Assembly (NCBI GenBank): GCA_015657535.1
Contig: JADHZB010000608.1
Span: 1 to 64,000 of the forward strand
From: Nephromyces sp. MM_2019
Lineage: Eukaryota > Apicomplexa > Aconoidasida > Nephromycida
Reading direction: 5' to 3'
DNA length: 64,000 bases
Under the pieces are notes generated by a model, which was not told the DNA's origin, did not search any database, and saw only the letters and a list, made by a program, of their open reading frames with translations. Position 1 is the stretch's first letter; each line of letters opens with the position of its first letter. Both the position numbers and the translations under genes were made by a program. Shown here piece by piece: positions 23,969-60,933 of the stretch.

Positions 23969-26900
23969 TTAGGGAATTTTGATACAACTAAAATTCCCTT
24001 TATTTGTAATTGATTGATCAGGAGTGGAGATAGAGCTAGAGTTTCTAGTGAATGATAAGGAATGGTTTAAGTCTTTATCATATTGTGACTTTCCTTGGTG
24101 TAATGAGGTCATCTTACTAGATGGTGTAGTCTCAGTTTGAGCTTGATCAGAGTCATCTATAGTTTCAATATCTTGATCAAAAAAGTTTTTATCGAATTTA
24201 AAAGCTTGATCAAAAGTAGTTACGTCTTCATCTCTATCAGAAGAAATGAGAGAGCTCCTTTTATTCGTAAAATCATTTGAGTTATGGTCACCACTTTTGA
24301 CTTGTGAAGATGTGTCCGTTTGATAAATTGAGCCCTCAGATTTCACTATCGAGTATTCATCATTACTTATAGCAACGTTTGGAGAGAGTTCCTCGAGTTT
24401 TGCTTTGTATCTGAGTGCATCTTCTTTAGCACTGTCTGCGTTTGGGCCATTAAATTTGAAGGATTTAGAGTATGATATACCATCTTGGGTCCAATAAACT
24501 TCCCATGCACCCTCTTCATTACCTTTGGGGGGGAGGAACTTCATAATAGGTATTCTCTTATTGCCTCTAGTTTTAGCCAGGCCTTGGTTTTCCTTATCCA
24601 ATCGCAACTGTTCAGCCTTTTTTTTGGCTCCTTCAAAACCATGTTGATTGATGTGGAAATTGTGAACTTTGACTTTCTGAGCTTCCCTATCAGACCAACG
24701 GCAAATCCATGCCTTTTCGCGCTTGCTATAATGTACACCTTTGACGTTAGACATGGGGTGATCGGGGTCAGATGTTCGTTTCCATATCTTCGGTCCATCT
24801 TCTTGAAGCATCTTTATGTGCTCAGAGGTATCAAGAGCATTTGTGGAAGTTGTTGAAGTTGCCTTATGATTTTTACGCTTCTTATAAGGCCTTTTCACTT
24901 TGATAAGGTGAGCGGATTGGTTATCATGAACTTTATTGGCTTTAGAAATTAAATGAGAGTTTAAATCCTTGGGCTTTATTGTTTTCTTAGGTGTCTCATT
25001 AACCATCCCCGAGCATGGTTTGTATTTCATTTTGTAAGGGTGGTCCTTTTCTAGTATTTTACGGAGTATTGAGCTCTCTTGAATTGAAAGTTTTGGACCT
25101 GAACCCCAGTCTGTTGGTTCTTCACCACCCAACTCTTCCACTCTCCTTTTATAAATAATTGCGAGATTCTTAGCTTTTTCCCAGCCATACTTACTTATGT
25201 TAAAATACTTATTTCTGCGCACTTGTTTACTCTCTATCCAAAAAGTGACTCTCCAACAGTGCCTTGATCTTTCGTAAGCTATACCATGTTCATTTCCATC
25301 ATAATATTGGGTTAAGAGATGTTGTTCGGAATCCTCTAGTTTCTGCCCGGCAAGCTGTCTAGCTTTTTCATATCCAAAAATCTGAGCGGAAATTCTTTCA
25401 AGTGTGGTAGATTGGGGAGATAAAGGGATTAATACACACCAACTCTTTGTTTCATGTTCCCAATATATTTCACGCTGATTGTCAACTCGATCTTGAAAAA
25501 TATTCTTAATGTCATGTTGCTTGGTGGATGATATAGTATTATTCTTCTTTGAATCCGTGCGTAGATCAGATTGTGCAATGGATGATGCCTATATTTAATA
25601 TACAAAAAGAATTTGAATTGTATGTGCAATTATTTAGAAGGTTACATAAACTATATCACAAGAATCTTTTATGAATCGATATAATTCCATCTGTGGTATT
25701 GTAGTACAGTGAAAGTATTGTTAAAAATAGAATTGTAATAAAATTACCTGTGTTGTAGCTTCTTTTGTGGGTTTCCTTGGTCTACCTCTACCACGATGTA
25801 TTGTAGTAGGTCGTTTATTTACTTTATTGTGATGTTTTTCATAGTTTGTGTTAGATTTATTTGCATTCATAGATTGTACCATTGCCTCTATTTTACTGTG
25901 GTAGAAATTCTCAGCTAATTGCTTAGCACATTCAAAACCATATTGTGAGACAGAGAATGATCTCTGTAAACAACGACCATTCACAACCCAAGCAGCAATC
26001 CATCTGCCCATCTCCATGAAGGATAGTGTGTAGTCTGTTTTGTCAAGGAATACTCCCCCATTAACAGTGTTTTGAGCAGATTGTATTGTAGTTGAATTGC
26101 TCGTGGTTTGTTCACTAGGATGATGGGTGTTATATGTTTCATTTTTAGTACCCATTGGCCTTTCTTGTTCTATTATCCCTGTAGGTTTCCATTTCTTTGG
26201 CTTCTTCTGTGAAGGATCAGCCCTTGTATACTTTCGTTTTATATGGACTTGTCCTTTTGGCTCGGTTTTCCTACCAAGGGAGTTTTTTGATATTCCTTCA
26301 CGATTTTTAGTGTTCGGATCGATGTTGTTATTTTTCTGGTGTTGTTCAAATTCAGGTGTTTGAACCTTTGCCTCACCGACTACACCTTGTCGGTTGTATT
26401 CACGTGGAGCCATTTTCCTGTTGAGCAAGTTTATGGCCATTTCTCTTGCCTTCTCATTGCCAAATTGGGCACACGAAAAGCGCTTCTTGAGATTCTTACT
26501 ACCCTGTTTAGTTGTCCAAGAACACTCCCAATATAATTTCTTACCCTCATTGACTAATGTAACTCTATAATTGGGTGATTGTGCACTTGCATTTTCACTT
26601 GTATTTACATGGTTAATTTCAGTTGTGATGCTTTTCTGAGGTTTAGAGTGCGAATTAAGTAACTTGGCATTCTTTGGTGCTCCATTCTTATTGGTTGGTG
26701 AATCCGATTGCTTTATATTCTTCTCGTGGGTAGGTGAGGTTTTGCCAATCGAGTTTGTTGGTGACTGTTGTTTGCTATCATTATCGGGTTCACCTTGGGA
26801 GTCGAGTGTTGAAAAAGAAGCCAAAATATCAAGGAGTCCCTGTGCAGCATTGCGGGTGGATTGAATTAATTGATTGTCAGTAATTGCATTTAAATCTGAA

Positions 26901-27154
26901 CTGATTTCAGTGAAGAGATTCTTGTGTGGTGTACTATCAAATCCAGAGAGATGTGCTACGTTGTTGCGTTCACTCTGTGCAACCTCATCCTGGGATGTAT
27001 GTTCATCATCGACTGAGTTCTGATTAGTTTGAATGAGATATTGTCTGTCTTGTTCTTCTCTGTTCTGCTTCTTAGCAAATTTTGCTCCTTTAATTTCAAG
27101 CCGTTTACCAAGGTGGTCTAATCTTTTCAGGACTCTGACCAAAGTTTTATCCAT
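23969..27154 (-). CDS. ApiAP2-type protein with six AP2 repeats
   Basis: Two exons, 27154-25748 and 25588-23969, joined in phase 0 (ACACAG|GTAATT; TTAAATATAG|GCATCA), give 1008 residues. Six segments of about 50 residues share the AP2/ERF pattern, a three-strand sheet with a Trp followed by an amphipathic helix containing (Y/F)G(F/Y/W)E.AK. They lie at about 196-247, 373-425, 509-553, 570-620, 752-800 and 817-870. The clearest is the fifth: GVHYSKREKAWICRW, then HGFEGAKKKAEQLRLD. Linkers are long, polar and basic (KRPYKKRKNHK near 700; RGRGRPRKP near the end of exon 1, an AT-hook-like GRGRP core). In Apicomplexa such proteins are nuclear DNA-binding regulators of stage-specific transcription. 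The sixth repeat is the most degenerate (QDGISYSKSFKFNG, then DSAKEDALRYKAKLEEL). Confidence 0.95.
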
Positions 27155-28339
27155 AAGGACTTTATCCCAGAAAAGTCTAAGGAATATAGTATGAAATGTG
27201 TGGGTTATATGGTGTATTTGTATGCATAATGAGTTAAGGTGTCGGGTTATAAGTGTTTGAGTATTAACAAGTTTTGTATGCTTTTATTAGGATGATTTAT
27301 ATTTAGATCTAAAACTTAAGTTATTGTGTACATGTGAGAGGGAATAGAAAAGATATATGAGATAATCCATTTGTTCATGTTATTAAATCGTATATAAAGA
27401 TGCTACGTTAGATGGTGCATTTAAAAAAATTGCTGAACTGTAATTAGAAATAATTTATAAAGTGGTGATTGAGATATTAGCTTGCTATAATCATCCCACC
27501 CAATGATTTAATTTGATAGTCTCATACAATTTATAAATTGAACTCACCTATTAATATAAATTTAAACATAAGATAGCCATTGAAAGTGACTCTTGCTTAT
27601 AAAGGGATAAGTAGAAGATATTTTATAGCCTTGTAAAATTAGTGATTTGAGATGTGTAAGATTATTTGCTTTATATATCACTATTTATATATCATAAATT
27701 CATCTAAATCATAGTGTATATATAGAGATATCAAATTAATAGTTTAAAAATTTATATAGTGTGTTATTAATCAATAACATATGCTATAATAGAGTCAACA
27801 CACGCTTTAAAATATAAAAACTTGATAATTTTTTAAGCTTAAATAGTTCCAAAGGTGGTTTATCATTTATGTGTGGATGTTATGTTTATCTAAATTGATA
27901 AGAGCAAAATTGAATACTTATAGCATTTTGTACACACACAGTGCTATATATACATTTACACCCAAAACACATGCCCTATATCTAGACATCCAGGATATAA
28001 AAAATGTTTATATACACATAAAAAACATGTTCCATCACTCCCTTGAACTTACATTGCTTGAGTTTCCAACTTTTAAATTGTCCAATGAATTGCTGTAATT
28101 GTTTTAAAATCACAGCAATTCAAACATTCGAATCAGGGTGATTCAATATATGTGTGTAAAGCCTAACTAGAGACCACTACACACTATTATAGATGATGGC
28201 ATAAAAAATATTCATATACATCACACACATTAAGAATTGTAGGCAAAATTTAGTAATTTAAACAATTTTTCGAATTTAAGTTCTTACAGGGCTAACACCT
28301 TTTATTATTACTTATCTATGCCATGAGCCAATTTAATTA

Positions 28340-38887: not shown

Positions 38888-40937
38888 TCAACCTGAGCCA
38901 TAAGCTAACTTTGTAGATCTCCCAGTCCTATCACAAAATGGATCATTGGCAGGATCGCACTCGATCAGCTTCCCAATTCCTCCTCCTATCAAAAGAGCAG
39001 CTAAATCTTCAGCATTTAGCCCTAGAAAGTTTCCACCTGAAATAGCTTTAAGAAAAAAAGGTTTAAAGAACATAATTTCGAAATTATCTTCTAACTAACA
39101 AACCTATGCTAACTTATAGATTATACTAACCCGAATTTCCTATTGGCACATTTTGCCTTTGTGGATCAAGAGGTGAGCTCAATGGACCGGCCGCTGCAGC
39201 TACCTCTTGAGGCACTGAACTCAATTCAGTTATCCACTTTTGCAACTCATTAGAAACAACGGCAGTATTCTTGACAAATGAATCTGTTAGCTCTTCAGGG
39301 TTGACTGGCCTTTGGTTGCCATACTCATCCCTAGTGTTAGAGATGAATGCTGATTGAACTGCATTCATTGCAGCCTTACGGGTCCTTGCTCTCTGTAAGT
39401 CTGCACCCATCATAAACCCTTCAGGGCATGTATTTCCTCTCATTGTTCGTAATCCACCTAAATTTGTTGGAATTATTGAACTAGAGCCTTGACGAGCTGA
39501 GATCAAAAGGTCACTATTAGTTGGAATAAGAAAATACTATAGAAAAACTATTACCTTTGTTATTAATTTGCAGGGGTCCACTTGTAAACAGAGAGGGTAG
39601 GAGTTGTAAGGATCTGGGTTCACTACTGAAGAATTGATTAGTTATATAGTAGACCTTTGAAAGTTCCATATTTCGTGCTACCAAAGCCTTCACTCCTGTA
39701 TAAGCGCTAATAGCTGTAAAAATTGTATTATAAATAGAGATATTTCAGCTACCCTATAAATATTACTACTAAACTACTCACCTTCATCACTCAGGTTTCG
39801 AGGGCTAGCTTCCATCCCAAAAATAGGAGAGATTGTCTGAAGTGTATCTGTTATTACATTACTTATATCTCCAAAAGGCACCACATAACCTGCCTCAGTT
39901 AGTTCGCTGGTTATCGCTTGAATATTTGCATCACCTGGAATTATGCAAGCAAATCTATCGGGTGGGGATAAATCTTTACAACATGACCTAGCACCACCAC
40001 AAATATATGGATATTCTTCACACTCATTAAAATTCTTGCAAGAATACCCATCTCCTGAATTTCGATACCCTAACTCATTATTACAGTCGCAAAAGTATCC
40101 TCCCCGAGTATTTACACAATTAGAAATCATACCACTAGGATCACAGGCATGTAGGTATGGATCTATACACTCATTAATATCCTCACAGGTTCGCTGGTCT
40201 ATTGCTAATCTAAATCCCATATTGCATGCACACTCCACTCCTGGGCTCCTATTAATACATATCTGCTCACATGGATTCATTGCTCCATCCATATCATTAC
40301 ACTCATCTAGATCTCTGCACTTCTTAGTGCTCTCATCTTTTATCTGATTAGGATTTTTACAATCACATTGATATGAACCTTGTAAATTCCTACAAGTCAT
40401 TGTTTCCGAGTCACAAGTATTGAGAGAAGGATCATGACATTCATCTATATCTAAGCAAATTTTCCCACTTGGTGCAAGATCATAGCCTTTTTTACACAGA
40501 CATTCGAAAGTACCTTGCAAATCGAAGCAATCCATTGTTTCCATATCACAATTATGAGTCCCTGTACGACATTCGTCGATATTCACACAACCCACACCAT
40601 CTTTACGACCATCCCCACTGTATCCTGAAGGGCATTGGCACAAGGCATCACCTATTATTGGTACTGAGGGTACGCATGTTGCTTCTGGGATACAAGGATT
40701 AAATGCAGGCAAGCTGCATACACCATCCATAATAGGATTATTGTGAGTGCTTGTTGATAACTTTGGCTGAGACATGTTACTTTTATTACTACGAATCAGT
40801 GTTCCACTGCCAGATTTTGGAGCAGGAGCTCCATGCCACAATTGCTGAGCTAAAGCATTTTGGATTTCAAGTAGACTAAAACTTATTGTTAGTATATAAA
40901 GGACAATAGGCCTATAGAAAAGGTACAAATTTTTCAT
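38888..40937 (-). CDS. Secreted protein with calcium-binding EGF repeats
   Basis: Four exons (40937-39782, 39713-39555, 39496-39131, 39036-38888) total 1830 nt, 609 residues. A signal peptide is clear (LYFRP-like start, hydrophobic core IVLYILTISFSLLEI, likely cut after ALAQ). After a short Ser/Asn-rich spacer come a six-Cys EGF (about 73-117) and at least five calcium-binding EGF repeats. These start NIDEC, DIDEC, DLDEC, DINEC and NFNEC, each with the D-x-(D/N)-E-C calcium signature. The last is followed by ICGGARSCCKDL and a Cys-poor region of about 270 residues containing NAEDLAALLIGGGIGKL. No membrane anchor or GPI signal is evident at the end (STKLAYGSG). Such proteins act extracellularly, as adhesins, wall or matrix proteins, and in Apicomplexa often traffic via micronemes. 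The exact role is not inferable. Confidence 0.95.
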
Positions 40938-43368
40938 CGGAATAATTCAATTTTGTCAATGTTCGCTTAAAAAACTTTCAATGGCTGAGGTTTTTAAAAA
41001 TTTGCTCATTGTCTAACAAAAAAATAATTCATTAGGTCCACTTACAGCCCTTTGCTCAAATTATACCTTTAGTTCTGATCAAGAATTTTTAAATTGTTAA
41101 TATTCTGCACAAGTTTTCTATAAATTATTGCTATCAAATTTCCTGGGAAACTGTTATCTAAATCCAATGCTTGAATAGTAGATTATTTAAATATAAACTA
41201 ATAAAATATTTAATTATTTTCTAATTTGAAATTAACCAAAAAAAAGAAATTCCAAGACAGCTGAATATAAAATTTCTGAAATTTGTTTTAATAAGAAAAT
41301 TTAAATTTTTAAAGTTTATGAAAAAATTAGAGTCCAAAAATTTTCTTCAAGTTTGAGTTGAATTAAACAATATCAATGTGTTCGATTTCTAGTCTATGGA
41401 ATGAAATTGTAAATTTTATTGAACTTTAAAATAGTCATACATTTTCAATTTATTTGTTTGCACTTAGTTACACTCTAAAGTCTACTAGAAAAAGGATAGA
41501 AAACATAAAGTTTTATATTATAGAGCGAAATTGATAAAGGCTTGAGCTAATTTTTGTAAGATGTTTTGTTAGCTATGTAAATTTATACTCAATAACCTCT
41601 AAAATCATGTTATACTAATTATCCCAAATAGAAAAGCACGAGTTTGCAGGCTATCTCTTAGGTCACTAATTTCTTGAAAATTTTGTACAAAAATTACAGA
41701 AGTTCTCACTAAACAGATTTATAAATCAACTCTAATTTATTTGAAATTAGCCACTCAGCTTCGGAGCTACAAATTTTGTTCCAATGTGTGTTGAACATAT
41801 GTATAATCTGTTTTCTTACAAATTACATGTAAATTATTAGTTAAACAATTCATACTATAATTAGTTTAAATATATTCCCATCACATTAGAATATTGTCTT
41901 GCATATTTTATTAATAATTATTAGCTAAATGTTTCAGGCTATAGTTCTAGTAAAGATTGTAAACTTTTGATGCTAAGTAAAAATGTTAGGAAATAGAAAA
42001 TTTATTATAAACTCTAAATAGTATGTGTATAAATACTTGTTCATTTCCAATTTCAAAACGTCATTAATAAATTTATATGTGGTAGTAAGGAATTGTTTAA
42101 GCACATTTAGCCTAAATTGATTTGTACCAATCAAATAAATAAATTATTAATGTGATTTTACATCAAGTCTTATGGAAAAGCACAAAGTTCTTAAGAATTT
42201 TATTAACTAATGCAATTAGAATCACCTAGTATATTTGAATTTACATGTGTCCTAAATTAAAAAAATTTTCAGCTCAATTATATATGTGAACAATATGCAT
42301 AAAAATTTGAATAATTCATTATAATCGTAACCTGGAAAATATGATTTATGTTTATTCTACAGTATTGAGATTATATCTAAACATCAAGTAATTTTTAATT
42401 TAAATAGTTTTGCATCTAATCTTCTTACATCATTACGTTTACTGATTATGATTTGAAATTTAATAAAATTCACATAAAAGCATCCAAAAATGAATCTTTT
42501 TGAAAGTTTATTTACATCAAATAATAACTCCTTGTTGAATAATATACCAAAATATAACTAAATTTGTTAAAGTTGATCCCAAAGCTTTAATTATATCCTA
42601 ATAATCAAATTTGAAACTTGTTGATTATGGGATGAATTTAAACGATTAAAAATTGAATTAAAATAATGATTTTTTAAAGCAATCTTTGTGTTATAGGAAA
42701 ATTGTTAAAACTGAAACCAAAAGTACACACAAGTTTAGATATCTTCAATTTTATGAAAACAAGTTCACTTTGTTTAAGTATTCAAATTTTTTTTAAACTT
42801 TCAATTGTTAATCAAACTTAAGTTACACTATAACTATAATTATATAATTTTAGGTATATTATCCACCAATTTTGTTGACTTTTTTAACAACAAAAACATA
42901 CCTCAATTAAAACTCAAGGTTTTAATCCTTGTTTATATAGATATATATTATAAAGTTTTACATTTCAAATAGAAGAGTAGACTAAGTGATTGATATGTTA
43001 TGTGTGCATGATGTGTATGAATATTATATATATATATTTCACAACTCATCACTCAACCTAAGTTCTCTAATTCAATTCTAGAGCTCTTTTTTAATGAGTA
43101 GTATAATTGAGGTTTCCAAAATCATCAAAATTGTAAAAAAGAGATATATTAACAAAAACTCAATCTATCAACACATAAAGATGATTATATATATATATAT
43201 ATATAGCCAATATCATTTTATATAAACAAAAAAAACCAAATAAAAAACTTTTAAAATTTACCATAAGAGGCTTTGAATAGCTTTGAATATAAAAAACAAA
43301 AATTGTCATAATATTAAAAACTCGTTCAAATTACTTAATTATTTATAAACTTTCAATATTAATGAATT
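40938..43368. other. Divergent intergenic region, 2.4 kb
   Basis: Very AT-rich between divergent genes, with poly-A and poly-T stretches and (TA)n near 43026 and 43187. No coding character. It should carry both promoters. Confidence 0.6.
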
Positions 43369-49256: not shown

Positions 49257-51220
49257 TCAGGATTCATACACATTAACCTTTTTACTCTGAGCTGATTTGG
49301 GTTGGACAACATTATACATGGCTGGCCTATGATTACTATTCATTGAGTGTGTGATGGGGCGATTGGAGTCAGTTAAGGAAGGTGCAAAATAACTATCACA
49401 GAACACATTATCACCCTTTATATTTAAGAGGTTCTCCCAGACAATGTTTGGATATTGATACAGTGCATGATCATTTGCAAGTAAATAAAGTGATCCATTT
49501 TTCTTATAGATTGTGTTGAAATGATTGTTTCTGAATAGGACTGCAACTTGGTTTTCTCTGATTATTTCCTTTAATTTTATTATCCCATAATCTGTCAGTT
49601 GTGTATTTGTGTCTTCCAAAAATTCTTGGATACGTATGGCATCTTCTTTGCTAAATTTCTTGGCTTCGGGTGTAAATGTGGGTGATGAATATGCATTTGG
49701 GCTATTTGTACCCTTGCTTGACTGGCTGTGTTGGCCTTGCAAATCACCCATTGTTGTAAGTTCTGTATAAGTTTAGACAAATGATATTCATTGTTCGGAG
49801 ATGTGGGGTAGAGGAAGGTGTGTACAGCTGGGGGTAAGGGTAGAGGTGTAATTTAGTATTTTATAGTTTGAGCACTTTGAGATTAATATGTGTAAGATCA
49901 ATCGATGGTATGTGAAAATCGAAATCAAAATAAAGGGCATGTTACTCAATTTTAGAAGCTATTAAATATAAAAATATAACCTTCGTTAAATATATATGGA
50001 TCTTCCATTCTTTTATCTTCTATACTCTCTGGCTTGTTGAGGTAAACAAAGTTTTAGACATTTATTCGAATAAGTAATATTCAATTTTACCTTTGTTAGA
50101 TACATATTCATCTTCATATTGATTAAATGAATCAATTATAATGTCAGTTAATTCATTGTAGTACATATCATCTTTAATAATGGATCCTAGGCTATCAGAG
50201 GGAGATATTAACCATCCATGAACAAGTTCTAGTTGACAGATTTCAAACAGAAACACTCCCATTGAAAACTGAAATGCATGGGGTTCAAGGAAACCACAAT
50301 TAACGTCCAATCCATTCAACATTGTTGGTAATAGTTTTGCAGTCTAAAAAGTTTGATTGGAATAAGAGGAGATGGGTTCAAAATGTGTTTGAAAAAGTTT
50401 GTCAGCAATAAAATAAAAAATGTTTTAAGGATATGTTTGAAAGTGCTCTATGATTTATTATCTAGATCAGAGAAAAACAAAAGTTTAAAAAATTTTATTC
50501 AAGTTCCACGTTACTTATAAGATTATATGAGATTTTTAGAAAATAAATTATAGCTATTCATATCCATATTTAAGTTTTTGTAAGTATTATAAAACAAGAG
50601 AAAATCCATATTTATTATAGAGGTAGTAGGTGAGAAAATATTCATAAGCTCATATTGTTGAAACTTTTGAAGTTTATTAAAAATATAAATCCCTCATAAA
50701 AAATATAACGATCTCCAAAGTAAATCATATCAAGAAGAATATCAGATGGAATGTTTTAAATAGGGGGTAAAGTATATCATGAACACTGGTGTAAATGAAT
50801 GTGTACTGATTACTCATCTTGTTTAAAACATCAAAAATAAGCTTGAGTTTATATTGTATAAGCTAAGCATACCTCATATATCTGAAACTTAGCGTCTAAT
50901 TGGGTTTGGGGGTTCAAAAGTATCTCTCGTTGGAGTTCTAATACATAATTCAGTATCAGTTCCAAGACTTCTGGAAATTCTATGAATTCTTTCCCTTTCG
51001 GTAGCACCAGCTTTCCTTTTAATATCAATGAATTTACTATCGAAACTAATGGGCAGGGTCCATATGACATTTGCATTAGGATATACACTTCGTCATCGAA
51101 AAATGTAATTCTTTTAACCGGGAAAACAAAATTTGATCCTCCATTCAAAAGTTTTGAGAGAGCTTGGTAAAGCTCCGCAATAGCATGCGAAGATACATCA
51201 TTGAATGTTATCAATTCCAT
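49257..51220 (-). CDS. MINDY-family (FAM63) deubiquitinase
   Basis: Three exons (51220-50873, 50343-50091, 49762-49257) total 1107 nt, 368 residues, in phase. The MINDY cysteine protease signature is intact: QMSYGPCPLVSIVNSL (Gln 50, active-site Cys 56) and VLFRNNHFNTIYKKNG (catalytic His near 281). Other family blocks are GLDVNCGFLEPHAFQFS, LVHGWLISP, YNELTDIIIDS and NIVWENLLNIKGDNVFCDS. MINDY enzymes cleave Lys48-linked polyubiquitin, preferring long chains, in cytosol or nucleus. There is no C-terminal ubiquitin-binding (MIU) helix as in animal MINDY1. Between the two catalytic parts lies a polar Ser/Asn insert (about 205-235) that falls at an exon start. The tail after FCDS is disordered. 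Confidence 0.95.
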
Positions 51221-54200: not shown

Positions 54201-56878
54201 TCATATTTTTGTTGACGTTATAAATTATAGAGCAATCGTAAGAACTTAAAAAGTTGAATATAAAGGAAACTTTTTTAACTCTGAAACTTTATTTAAAAAT
54301 TTTTATTTTGTTTCATAGGGAAATACAAATTTCAATTGGTCTGTGGTAAAAAGCTTTTAAAGAAAATTTAAGGTCTGACATTTGTAATATATATATGTTT
54401 TCGTATATGTATACATGTTTGTATATGTTTAATTTCAAATGTTAAAGGTGAAATTGAAAATTAGATAGTCAGATTTAAGGTATCAAAAAGTGTACCTAAT
54501 TCCTTTTAGTTAATTTGAATTTAAAAGAAATTTTAGCAACTAAAATTAAAACACAATTACTCAGAAAATCTATTCTCACACTCATACATACATGCACACA
54601 AGAGATACTTTTCTACAAATTATTTAATGTTACATATATACACACAAAGTAGGCTTATCCTATATCATCAAACTTTATAAATACTAGGTTAATTAGTCTT
54701 AAAATAATTCAATTTTACATAAAAAATTGATGTATAAATAAAAATAATCTAAATTTTAAGGTTAACATACACAATACAATAGTAATAGGGATTTATAGCT
54801 AAATCTATAGCGTAATCATAAACAAGTACACTCATAAACAACTATTCAAATGATATTAATAAAATTACATGAACAATCACACAAACAAATAGAACCCAGC
54901 AAAACAGAAACATAGTTAATTAACTAATAAAATCACACATGAGTGAAAATACACCAGTAATGACAATCACACAACAGGCAAATAAATCTATATATACTCA
55001 TACAATAATGAATTGATTTTAATACAAGCTCGGTAATTATAATCAAATTTCGTTAACCAATCGACACAATTAGTGTAACATGTATGCGTTTTATATATGA
55101 AATAAGATATAGGCTTTAGTGTAGATCTTAGCGCTTATGAGTCTAAATATTAATAGATTGCTATTACTTTTCATTAGCTAAGTTAGAAACGTTAAAATGT
55201 ATACACATGTTGTAACTATTACACATATGTATTAGTGTGTAACAAGCATTATGTGTTTGCGTTACAAGTGTGTCGAGAAAAATTCAAACACATGTGCTTT
55301 TGCTTGAAATCTACTACTATTTCACTATGCTTTTAAATTAATTTCTAAGCACTAAAACTTTTTGACTGGACGCGTGCACGAAACACATAATTGCAAACAG
55401 CACATATAAACAGTGTTAATTATCGTGATAGCGCTATCTACACATACACAAACACACACTATAACTAAAACACAAGTACACTCCCCATCTTCCCAAACAC
55501 ACACACACACACACACACACGGGCAACACATACCATATATATATACACACAAAAACACACACACAAAAACACACACATGCACAACACATACCCCTTTACA
55601 TACACACAACACACACAAACGCACACCAGAGCTATAAATAAGCAAGCAATTATCGTTAGCAAATTATATTTATCTACACTGAGCGGTGCATCCTACCTAA
55701 TCGCAACATGCCTACTTAGTATTAAATATGTAAATTCACATGCACACACACACTACTAATGTTTATATATATAACACACAAACGCACATACAAATTAAAC
55801 TGCATTAAATAATAACATGTTTCCAAAATGTAATATTTTCATGTTCTTCAGTAAGATCCTTTAAAGCTCGTCTAATTTATAGTACACATATCCACACATA
55901 CACATTCTCTCCCTTGCTATATATGTATTGAATATATACTAACAAACACACACCAAAATATAAACTTATTCAGACGCATAAACACACTATACATGCACAA
56001 CTACTACAAATACACAGCATACACATACATATACATATACACTCACATATACACATAGATTAAACCCTATTTTCACCATATTTTTCTTAATGTTACTTAA
56101 TTTATCACCTTGTCTCTCTCTCTCTCACTCTCTCTATTCAATCACATGACACATTAAACTCTACACTCTCCTTACACACATTCACACCAACACACACACA
56201 ACCACACATTCACACACACACAAATACACATAGTCTCACTACTGGAACTTAACATAAATCTGAGCAACTTCTTCACACAAACTCTCTCCCATTTGTGAAT
56301 AATTAATTCAAACATATACATACCTAATTAATTTGACTAAATGTCACACCCTTTCTTTTACACAACCACTCATATGCCAATTCATTTGCACCTCCTGTTC
56401 AAAAATATAATTTTTTAACCGAATTTACAGCTAATTTTGACATACAAATCTGATAGATACTAACTTACTTTTCACGATTTATGTATACTTCTAAGAGAAT
56501 CTTCACACATTAAGCCACTCTCAATCAACTTGTAAGCTCACACCTACCATTTACACTCATACCCACCTTTGAGACACTCACACAGACCACTGCATACACA
56601 CATAAGTTCACAGCAGCTCACACACTCCTACCTAGACACTTATCCCCAACATCTACATTACCCGCTACTATACATAAGTACAATACAGGCACAGACATAC
56701 TCACATATACCCCCACGCACCCACTTAAGCGCTCACACCTTAAACACGCATAACATACCCACCCCCACCCCCCAAACCTCCACACACTACACATACATAC
56801 ACATCACACCAATTTTATTTAAAATATAATATTAATTTTACTGTATTCATCAGCCAATATATCTACACACAACTGAAG
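51221..56878. other. Gene-poor region, 5.6 kb
   Basis: 51240-54560 is extremely AT-rich, with no frame of coding character on either strand. From about 54570 to 56830 the plus strand turns CA-rich (ACACAC, CACATA), with a pure CA run at 55496-55520. Frames in this second half, for example 55352-55662 on either strand and 56569-56829, are His/Thr- or Cys/Val-rich translations of the repeat and are not called. Upstream of the IQ/CBM48 gene, so its promoter lies here. Confidence 0.55.
55496..55520. repeat. (CA)n microsatellite
   Basis: Pure run of about 12 AC units before GGGC. Confidence 0.95.
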
Positions 56879-57103
56879 ATGATGAATCATTTCACCGATA
56901 AATGTCTGACATGGAATTTACATTTCAACACTTTCAGGCCTCTCTTGAGATATTCATATTATCAACACCTCTTTACTTCATTCAGCTACACAAACATTTT
57001 AACAAAAGCCCCTTTCCATTTCCTACGCTTTAAATATATCTCACAACTCCTTACATTTCCCCTATTAATCTCAGCCAATTGTGCACACAACTCACTGAAT
57101 AGA

Positions 57104-60100
57104 ATGGGGAATACAACGACTGTTATATATACATCAGAAAATTCTACATACCCTGAGATCATACCACCTCTGAACTCACTCTTACACACACACTCTGATG
57201 ACCCACAAGGTTCTGAGTCAGTTAAGGCTTCTTATATTAATATGGCTGAGCTACTTATTTCCAAATTAGTTAGATTTGAAAAACAGTTATGGAGGGATTT
57301 GCTAGCAAATTCTACAAACACTTTTAATAATAGTAGCACCAATACACAAATTAGCACTACAAACAATGCACGTATGAGTGATAGAGATTTCGCTAGGAAC
57401 CTACCTACTGTGGGACAATCAGATACATCCTCAGGGAATACACGCACATCTGATAAAGTAGATGGTCATCCAAGTGATAAAGGGTGCACACACACACCAG
57501 ATAATCAACGAAACATGAGTGAAGTTGGTGATAAGAAAACTGTGCTGATTAAAGAAGAAAGTAAAAATGAACTTTCCGTTAAGATTGGTTTGCTCAAATC
57601 ATTTGCATTCAAACAGGTGCGTGTATTGGGAGGTGTGTGTGTTGGGAGGTGCTTAGGTTCTTGAGTCTGCTATATGGTTGTTTTTTGAGTATTAAACAAG
57701 CTTCATTTTTTTTATTTGTATATACTTTATTTACTTAATTTTATATTATATTTCCAAATTGCATGCTTTTATATAAACATTCTTTCCTATAAAAGATAAC
57801 ACCCCTATACAAAATATTATCTACAATTATACGCACACACAACCCACACGAACATTCTCTCAAATCTATACAAATAACCCATTCAACCCCACCCTCACAC
57901 ATACACAGGATACAATGGACTATTTAAATATACCCACAAGCCCTACTGAAAACATCGACAGGCCCCTCACAATCACCGAACTAACAATTCTAAGGAGAAT
58001 GTTTGCAACTGCTGCAGCCACAGTTATACAAAAACATTATAGAGGGTACAAACAAAGGTGTAAATATACACACGATATTGTGATTTATAGGGAACAACAA
58101 AAACTAATAAATGCAGCAATTTGTATACAAAAACATTGGAGAGGTAAATTAGGTAGAGAAGCATATGAAGTGGAAAAAATTTGCCAAGAAATTATGAAAA
58201 AACGAAGAGATGCAGCGGTGTGTTTATGTATATGGGTGTGTGTGTGTATAGGGGGGCTTGTAAAGTACGTGTGTATGGTTTCTGTGTATGTGGGTTGTAT
58301 GTATGGTTTCTTTGTGTATGATGTGCGAGTGTATGGATTGTATATCCCTGTAGAGATGTATCAGAGAGAGTGAAAGAGGGGTATAGAAACAGTGTATTTT
58401 TCTGGGAATGTATGGGCCGCGGGTTGTATAGAATGTGTATATAAATAACAGTTAGTTGGATTGTGTGTAAAATATATACCCCCTATAATATAATGTTTTC
58501 CAAAAAAAGATACAACACACTCCTCACATCCCTGATTACATCTCAGTCTTTCCACATCAATACACACCTCACAAAATTATATGAATTACACATGCATATA
58601 CACAAAATCAACTTAATTATTTTTTATGTATAGATCATCATACAAAAGAACTGGAGGAGGTGGCAAGCACAACAAACTTATGCTTTTGAACAACTGGTAA
58701 AGTACAACCCCCCCTACAATCACCTACCCCTACGACAATGACACACACACTCACACACACACCCCATAACAATCACACCCACCCACATACCCATACTCCT
58801 ACACATTTGTTTACAGACCATTTTCTTTATGAAATTGAGGAGCTGTGCAGCATCAGAAATTCAAAAGACCTGGAGAGGTTATAAGACGAGAACGTGTGTA
58901 GACTCTGAGTGGAAAGATTGGATCATTAAATGGAAGTGGGACTCACCTGGTACAATTGTGGAGGTATGTGTGTATGTGTGTGCAATTAAGATAATACGTG
59001 TTTAATGTAAGAATGTGTGTACATGAATGTTTATGAATGTGAATGTGTGTGAATGTAAATGTGTGTGAATTTTTATGTATGTTGCGTGTGTATATGAATG
59101 TGTGTGTGTATAGATTAGTGAAATATGCCCATTATTTATATATAATCTTGATGTGCAGGTTGTGGGTGACTTTTCGAACCCTCCTTGGACCAAGAGGCAC
59201 CTAATGACATATTGTCATATCAGAAAGTCTGTGTGTGTGTATTCTAATTAGTATACTTTATGAATAGATGATTTCATGTAAAGTATAAATCTGTAATATT
59301 ATTGTAAGATGATTAAACCCTACACACTCATGTATTATTAGACATTTTACGCTGAAATTACCACGAAAGGTTGGACGTTATGAACTCAAATTTATAGTGG
59401 ATGGACGATATGTTTGTGATGGTGGCCAACCTGTTATATTGGTATACACATATATTTTTAAACACACCCAGTTCATTTTCCATAGCTTAGAATTTTACTC
59501 AAACATTTCTATATTCATACAACTTTTATCCCTAGTTTTAAAATGTTACACACACATAACATTACGCCTCTAATCTTACATACACAGACATACATATTTA
59601 AATATATTTAAGATTCACATCTTGCACACACATAACTTCACCCTGCTAACCTTACACACACACACACAAATTTAAATATTTTTGAATATAGGATGGCGCA
59701 GGCCATTTTAACAATCTTATTACAGTTGAACCTGCAAAGGAATCACCAAGTGAGTATTTTAATTTTAATTTTTGCACACACATAAGTATACTTAAGTTAT
59801 ACTAACAACATACAGATATATATATTATAGGCTCAACTAGTTATAATGTTTTATATAATTTCCTACACACAGTGAGTCGTATAAGAAGAAATCTACTTGG
59901 GAGTTTACACTACAGGGTATCCAGAAAGGGGCCAGATGTACATACGCACAATTCATTTAATAGTACACCAATGTTTGAGATCTCATCTACTAGTCATTCT
60001 GAATTAAAAAGTGTGCACACACACAAACAAGCACAAGCTACAGATAGTCAAGAACACATAGAAAGCATGGGTAAACAAACAAACGTACCCAGCACTGTCG

Positions 60101-60933
60101 ATAGGCCTAACGAAAACATAGAAACTCCTCCACACAACTCAATTACATATACACCTCAGGATTCTAATTCATCGTATGACCCTACACACACCTCACTCAT
60201 TACTGAGACCACATCAACTACCTACCCACACAATTACACAGACAGTATTAGGGCTGAGACAACCACACATCCTCTAGACATTGACATAGATCCTAAATCC
60301 TCTTCTCTACACACATTTGACTTATACACCCATATACTTGATCCTATAACACATGGATGTGACACACTCATAAATAACATAGATGATGATAGTACAAACA
60401 CAAATGATTCTAGCATGTTATCCCCCAATTTACATACACAAGCTCCAAACCTAACCACACACACATTCAAAACACCACAAGAAAAAAACTTTTTAACTGC
60501 AAGCACTTGCCCATCTGAATCAAGCAGCCCACTCCAAATATTTTCACAAGCACACACACAAACCACTAACAACCAAAATGCAAGTAATGCTGATCATCAC
60601 CACTCCTTTAATTTAAATGGAGGAAAACAATCTAAACACATACACACACTTCCCTCTCCCTATAATTATAATAACCCAGAAGAGACCATTCTTTTTGGTG
60701 ATGAATACACTTTTAATATTCAAACACAGCCATTACCATTTGATGATGATGGACCTAATTTTGATAACTTTACTCAAACCAATCTTGTATATACAGGAAC
60801 TAACAATAATGAAAGCCCTATATTATTTAATGTTGATTACATACACACAAAGAATGATAGATTGAGAGGTTTCACACCTCTCAACGAAGACGATTATGAA
60901 CGTAAAGATTGGCGAAAACGAAAAAAACTGTAG
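57104..60933 (+). CDS. IQ-motif protein with CBM48-like glucan-binding domain
   Basis: Exons 57104-57616, 57909-58217, 58634-58696, 58817-58963, 59159-59232, 59342-59441, 59692-59749 and 59831-60933 give 788 residues, phases consistent. The start is chosen as MGNTTTVIY, a potential N-myristoylation site; the frame also opens at 56879, 75 codons further upstream. Four IQ calmodulin-binding motifs follow at about 210-220 (VIQKHYRGYKQR), 241-253 (ICIQKHWRGKLGR), 275-285 (IIIQKNWRRWQ) and 309-320 (EIQKTWRGYKTR). A domain at about 328-418 matches CBM48 / AMPK-beta glycogen-binding domains: WKWDSPGTIVEVVGDFSNPPW, then VGRYELKFIVDGRY and GHFNNLITV. The C-terminal 365 residues are disordered, His/Thr/Ser/Asn-rich, partly CA-repeat-derived, ending in a basic patch (RKDWRKRKKL). 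Likely a Ca2+/calmodulin-linked glucan (amylopectin) adaptor; this is inference. The exon 5 donor lies in a TG repeat. Confidence 0.88.

Follow-up and report, generated by a model that had tools for sequence, protein, structure and literature searches.

An apicomplexan protein family that joins evenly spaced IQ motifs to an AMPK-beta-type CBM48 domain

In the apicomplexan Nephromyces sp. MM_2019, a gene at 57104-60933 on the plus strand of the 64,000-nucleotide stretch analyzed here (positions 1 to 64,000 of contig JADHZB010000608.1, assembly GCA_015657535.1; hereafter the window) encodes a protein in which four IQ motifs are followed by a carbohydrate-binding module (CBM) of family 48, CBM48, of the type found in AMPK beta. 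This IQ-CBM48 protein belongs to a real, conserved apicomplexan family. Its most surprising feature, which is new relative to the original prediction made from the letters of this DNA, is a 33-residue register that takes in the CBM itself. The register was assessed by a scripted pattern search of 11 sequences, comprising the window protein and ten homologues. In 10 of these, two of which were read by hand, the step from one IQ site to the next is exactly 33 residues, as is that from the fourth site to the VEV strand of the CBM, so that the CBM occupies the place where a fifth site would begin. The script alone shows this spacing in 8 of the 11; P0002 fits if a single surplus match to the pattern, lying between sites 2 and 3, is disregarded, and P0007 fits with a third site read by hand (LQNAWF at 247, missed by the pattern) and one extra match disregarded. 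For the Cyclospora sequence (P0006) the final step alone is measurable, and it is 33. A second copy of the gene in the same assembly, on contig C697, is off-register, with steps of 30, 34, 33 and 33. The IQ-only proteins P0008 and P0009, which came from the homology search and served as controls, have mixed spacings of 21 to 92 residues and one of 282, with two 33-residue steps in P0009.

Profile searches recover both domains above their Pfam cut-offs in the 772-residue window protein: the IQ family (PF00612) in four stretches at 67.6 bits (E 2.6e-19; cut-off 20.3), and the AMPK1_CBM family (PF16561) at 53.6 bits (E 2.7e-14; cut-off 26.8), neither of which chance could explain. The strings from which IQ motifs and a CBM48 had been proposed are present at the place and on the strand originally given. 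The claim of four IQ motifs holds as far as the four profile stretches go, while the consensus IQxxx[RK]Gxxx[RK] is complete in three of the four motifs, the third (IQKNWRRWQAQ) being incomplete. The CBM also matches AMPK beta2 structures by sequence (2f15, E 1.1e-6). Beyond these two families, Pfam at E-values up to 10 lists just a weak IQ variant (HMMER filters discard most matches above about 0.1), which indicates that the protein has neither a catalytic domain nor an AMPKBI domain. A PF16561 profile search of the assembly returned four matches and missed the window gene because exons split its CBM.

The presence of IQ and CBM48 domains in one real gene is confirmed, and the fusion does not stem from a faulty gene model. 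The window gene was modeled by hand as eight exons with GT/AG junctions and a stop-free translation. In the C697 copy (57 and 59% identity in its two matches), spliced at GT/AG sites chosen by hand beside the sequence matches, the equivalents of exons 3-7 measure 63, 147, 68, 100 and 58 nucleotides (nt), with lengths and phases equal to those of the window gene; the counterpart of exon 2 is shorter, 192 rather than 309 nt. A Rhytidocystis transcript (P0001, from GHVS; organism according to PMC7522995) encodes IQ and CBM in one chain, as do predicted proteins of Toxoplasma, Hammondia, Besnoitia and Cystoisospora. Together these exon lengths, this transcript and these proteins establish the fusion as genuine, and the case envisaged in the original prediction, with IQ and CBM exons lying in separate genes, does not hold. 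As a separate observation, the assembly seems to combine two related genomes, such as a mixed infection or a mixed assembly would produce, with matching loci paired at differing GC content: 0.41/0.32 for L001/L002, 0.44/0.35 for L003/L004, and 0.45 for the C697 copy (L025) versus about 0.35 for the window gene.

The same layout is common to Toxoplasma, Hammondia, Besnoitia and Cystoisospora, whose members are annotated merely as "IQ calmodulin-binding motif" proteins, and to three metagenome proteins (P0007, P0011 and P0012); P0002, from the GHVT transcriptome, is a further homologue. The uniqueness implied by the original prediction is thereby lost: the pairing is already in public Toxoplasma annotation and is not a new category. 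Identity to the window core is 51% for Toxoplasma (P0004), Hammondia and Besnoitia, 62% over 58% of the core for Cyclospora, and 36% for P0007. Measured to the Toxoplasma core, P0011 and P0012 reach 32 and 33%, and the Cystoisospora protein is 77% identical to that of Toxoplasma. The Toxoplasma and Hammondia cores are 98% identical, and the sequences are thus not all independent. The coccidian counterparts share with the window protein the domain order, the register (in Cyclospora the final step only) and the pair of Pfam families (in Cyclospora the CBM only), but they are longer proteins of 977-1651 residues with other disordered arms. The Cyclospora record keeps the fourth IQ motif and the CBM, but the region upstream of them fails to align, probably through a gene-model fault. 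When Pfam was run on six homologues, P0007 fell below the IQ cut-off and P0011 and P0012 just below the CBM cut-off. A strip reading VEVxGDFxxPxWTxR is conserved in the CBM across a six-sequence alignment.

The C-terminal 30 residues are rich in Arg/Lys (9-11 of 30, where 3-4 are expected) in the window protein, P0001, P0003-P0006 and P0010; this basic tail is absent from P0002 and P0007 and weaker in P0011 and P0012. An MGN start had raised the possibility of myristoylation, but none of the ten homologues, as predicted, begins with MG, and the window frame is open upstream to 56744 with further in-frame ATGs at 56879 and 56882, leaving conserved myristoylation unsupported.

No protein named Plasmodium, Babesia, Theileria or Cryptosporidium was among the homology matches, a weak absence given that the search finds only proteins that share 5-residue words with the query and fall inside a length window. 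A profile search among 7994 scored candidates gave only its own query, P0007, under length limits that excluded longer homologues. Among the titles and abstract openings listed by a literature search outside subscription papers and supplements, there was no study of the IQ-CBM48 protein. TGME49_262120, possibly the IQ-CBM48 gene, carries the same generic IQ name in one paper.

With confidence a little short of even, we favor a reading of the protein as an EF-hand-decorated rod that would bring calcium sensors to storage glucan. The CBM fold sought by AlphaFold is seen in models of two homologues, rather than of the window protein itself, and both models show a single 134-residue helix with the CBM as its cap. 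At a helix rise of 1.5 angstrom per residue, 134 residues span about 20 nm. The protein would thus be a cytosolic scaffold in which one rigid helix, flanked on either side by disordered arms, bears four EF-hand docking sites at 33-residue steps and the CBM at its C-terminal end. Docking of EF-hand proteins on the IQ sites is likely, and is the safest inference from the sequence; these may be calmodulin or centrin-like light chains. Calmodulin would be the default partner and centrin its rival, because Sfi1 binds centrin through a region about 33 residues long (PMC8622359). The CBM may fix the rod on amylopectin or sense it, while Ca2+ occupancy of the light chains would alter the stiffness of the rod or its recruitment of partners, so that the building, breakdown or placement of granules could respond to Ca2+. 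Such control of storage glucan is plausible.

The link to glucan draws on the type of domain, a partly kept sugar site, matches to starch synthase, CBM_48 and CBM20 in the same assembly, and work on Ca2+ and amylopectin in Toxoplasma. Toxoplasma CDPK2 carries EF hands and a kinase within its own chain, whereas the IQ-CBM48 protein would have to recruit EF-hand partners and has a CBM of a different family. What the two would share is the principle of using a CBM, in CDPK2 a CBM20, to bring a Ca2+ sensor to amylopectin (PMC9254107). As for the sugar site, residues W100, K126, W133 and N150 of rat AMPK beta1 are named as critical (PMC4032982), and L146 and T148 are likewise reported to contact sugar (PMC2642990). 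W100, K126 and N150 are kept, with Tyr at 133, in 9 of the 11 sequences (the window protein, P0001-P0007 and P0010) and in the C697 copy. The AMPK-beta-like loci L003 and L004 of the same assembly retain Trp at 133, so that Tyr marks the IQ-CBM48 family. The site in the apicomplexan members thus appears weakened, with glucan binding plausible, and in P0011 and P0012 its function is doubtful.

Several observations weigh against a role on storage glucan. The window protein itself has Tyr for W133, and the L146/T148 pair is replaced by Ala/His in the window, C697 and Rhytidocystis sequences, by Asn/His in Toxoplasma and by Glu/Tyr in P0007. Gln stands for K126 and Ile at the W133 position in P0011 and P0012, so conservation of the sugar site does not extend across the whole family. 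The structural models were built from 7 and 10 sequences, of homologues only; the last part of the CBM has a predicted local distance difference test (pLDDT) score <50 in both, as does the helix end adjoining the CBM in P0007 (residues 290-296), which leaves rigidity of the junction without support in that model. Cryptosporidium stores amylopectin, and the lack of a protein from that genus among the homology matches counts in the same direction. The amylopectin that accumulates upon loss of calmodulin in Toxoplasma is read by its authors as a metabolic defect (PMC9602672), so the link may be indirect. The literature searched yielded no binding, localization or phenotype results for this protein.

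A real though lesser possibility is that the protein is a Sfi1-like structural element, in which the CBM48 would have turned into an anchor for a cytoskeletal or other protein partner and centrin or other EF-hand proteins would line the helix, with no glucan role. Sfi1 is a long single helix, to which the rod predicted here bears a likeness. The step of 33 residues equals the length that Sfi1 allots to each EF-hand protein, about 33 residues (PMC8622359). The register persists in P0011 and P0012 despite their changed K126 and W133 positions, and the conserved strip of the CBM extends beyond the sugar site, both of which accord with an anchor that binds protein. The window protein nevertheless differs from Sfi1 in having the IQ consensus, just four sites and a CBM48 cap. 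Pfam includes an Sfi1 family, yet at the permissive listing used above it gives IQ and no Sfi1 profile for this protein, and the retention of W100, K126 and N150 in 9 of 11 sequences also speaks for sugar over protein.

It is improbable that the protein is a divergent AMPK beta subunit adding a Ca2+ input to the AMPK complex. The CBM is of the AMPK beta type and resembles the glycogen-binding module of that subunit (PF16561; PDB 2f15, 4yee, 1z0m) in fold and in part of the sugar site, but the window protein places an IQ array in front of the module, replaces W133 by Tyr and has two additional residues ahead of the first Trp, and the C-terminal AMPKBI domain (PF04739) is not listed for it by Pfam at E-values up to 10; membership was rejected on this last ground. 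A PF04739 search of the assembly gave no match, but its controls were likewise empty, which makes it uninformative. In Toxoplasma a different gene, TGGT1_268960, is the putative AMPK beta, and the paper that describes it proposes a single gene for each subunit (PMC9880002); the Nephromyces assembly likewise has separate AMPK-beta-like CBM loci, L003 and L004, that keep the Trp. Origin of the module from an apicomplexan AMPK beta is unsupported, since the module is at least as close to human beta2 (36% identity) as to these two CBMs (35 and 34%). An artefact, whereby two adjacent genes were read as one, has a negligible likelihood and was rejected: the window model is hand-made with no RNA from Nephromyces behind it, but the equal exons of the C697 copy and the transcript and proteins with both domains in several genera contradict it.

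The features of the gene are collected in Table 1. CACACA/TGTGTG repeats run throughout window positions 56744-60933 and L004, in introns, intergenic DNA and coding exons (as His-Thr runs), at 8-10 per kb around the IQ-CBM48 gene and 32 per kb in L004.

Table 1. Features of the IQ-CBM48 gene in window coordinates.
Feature	Position	Strand	Remarks
Exon 1	57104..57616	+	Low-complexity N-terminal region, MGN start
Exon 2, 309 nt	57909..58217	+	Holds IQ1 and IQ2
IQ1 IQKHYRGYKQR, residues 211-221	58026..58058	+	IQ consensus complete
IQ2 IQKHWRGKLGR, residues 244-254	58125..58157	+	Complete consensus; IQ1 + 33 residues
Exon 3, 63 nt	58634..58696	+	Holds IQ3; equal length in second copy on C697
IQ3 IQKNWRRWQAQ, residues 277-287	58640..58672	+	Incomplete IQ motif; IQ2 + 33 residues
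Exon 4, 147 nt	58817..58963	+	IQ4, then conserved bridge EWxxWxIKWxWDxPGTIVE into CBM
IQ4 IQKTWRGYKTR, residues 310-320	58859..58891	+	Complete; IQ3 + 33; CBM VEV strand 33 later
AMPK-beta-type CBM48 (PF16561), residues 334-415	58931..59736	+	Across exons 4-7, introns within span
Exon 5, 68 nt	59159..59226	+	VVGDFSNPPWTKRHLMTYCHIRK
Exon 6, 100 nt	59342..59441	+	Contains GRYELKFIVDGRYVCDGG
Exon 7, 58 nt	59692..59749	+	DGAGHFNNLITV; final CBM strands
Exon 8	59873..60933	+	Remainder of conserved SPxxxIR stretch, long low-complexity tail, basic ERKDWRKRKKL end, stop

Elsewhere in the assembly, the CBM of the AMPK-beta-like genes L003 and L004 has the string GTFS(N/D)PPW together with a longer loop. 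The AMPK1_CBM matches L001 and L002 share contig and strand with starch-synthase (PF08323) matches L011-L014, at a distance of about 2 kb downstream on C353 and about 6 kb on C813; these loci may encode a starch synthase that carries a CBM48 at its C terminus. Within the window, two adjoining open frames at 23969-27283 (-) each match the AP2 DNA-binding domain in two stretches, a feature of apicomplexan regulators of the ApiAP2 type. An open frame at 39774-40946 (-) has a hydrophobic start and three calcium-binding EGF stretches, and another at 49257-49772 (-) matches the end of a MINDY deubiquitinase domain.

Amylopectin builds up in the bradyzoites and oocysts of Toxoplasma, and how stage-specific metabolism of this kind is regulated has been called largely unknown (PMC9880002). 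A tie between calcium and amylopectin is already known through CDPK2 (PMC9254107) and through the depletion of calmodulin (PMC9602672). In a bolder form that we consider unlikely, the IQ-CBM48 protein could be a molecular ruler, a stiff helix that spaces four calcium sensors 5 nm apart and has a glucan-gripping end, forming a Ca2+-gated tether that would set where and when amylopectin granules are built or broken and that would have been conserved since before the split between coccidians and Rhytidocystis. Even if the CBM turned out to have no affinity for sugar, the protein would remain an unusual EF-hand scaffold by virtue of its 33-residue ruler. With calcium-sensor sites and a glucan-type module physically linked in a conserved chain, it offers a directly testable candidate for the missing link between calcium and amylopectin.
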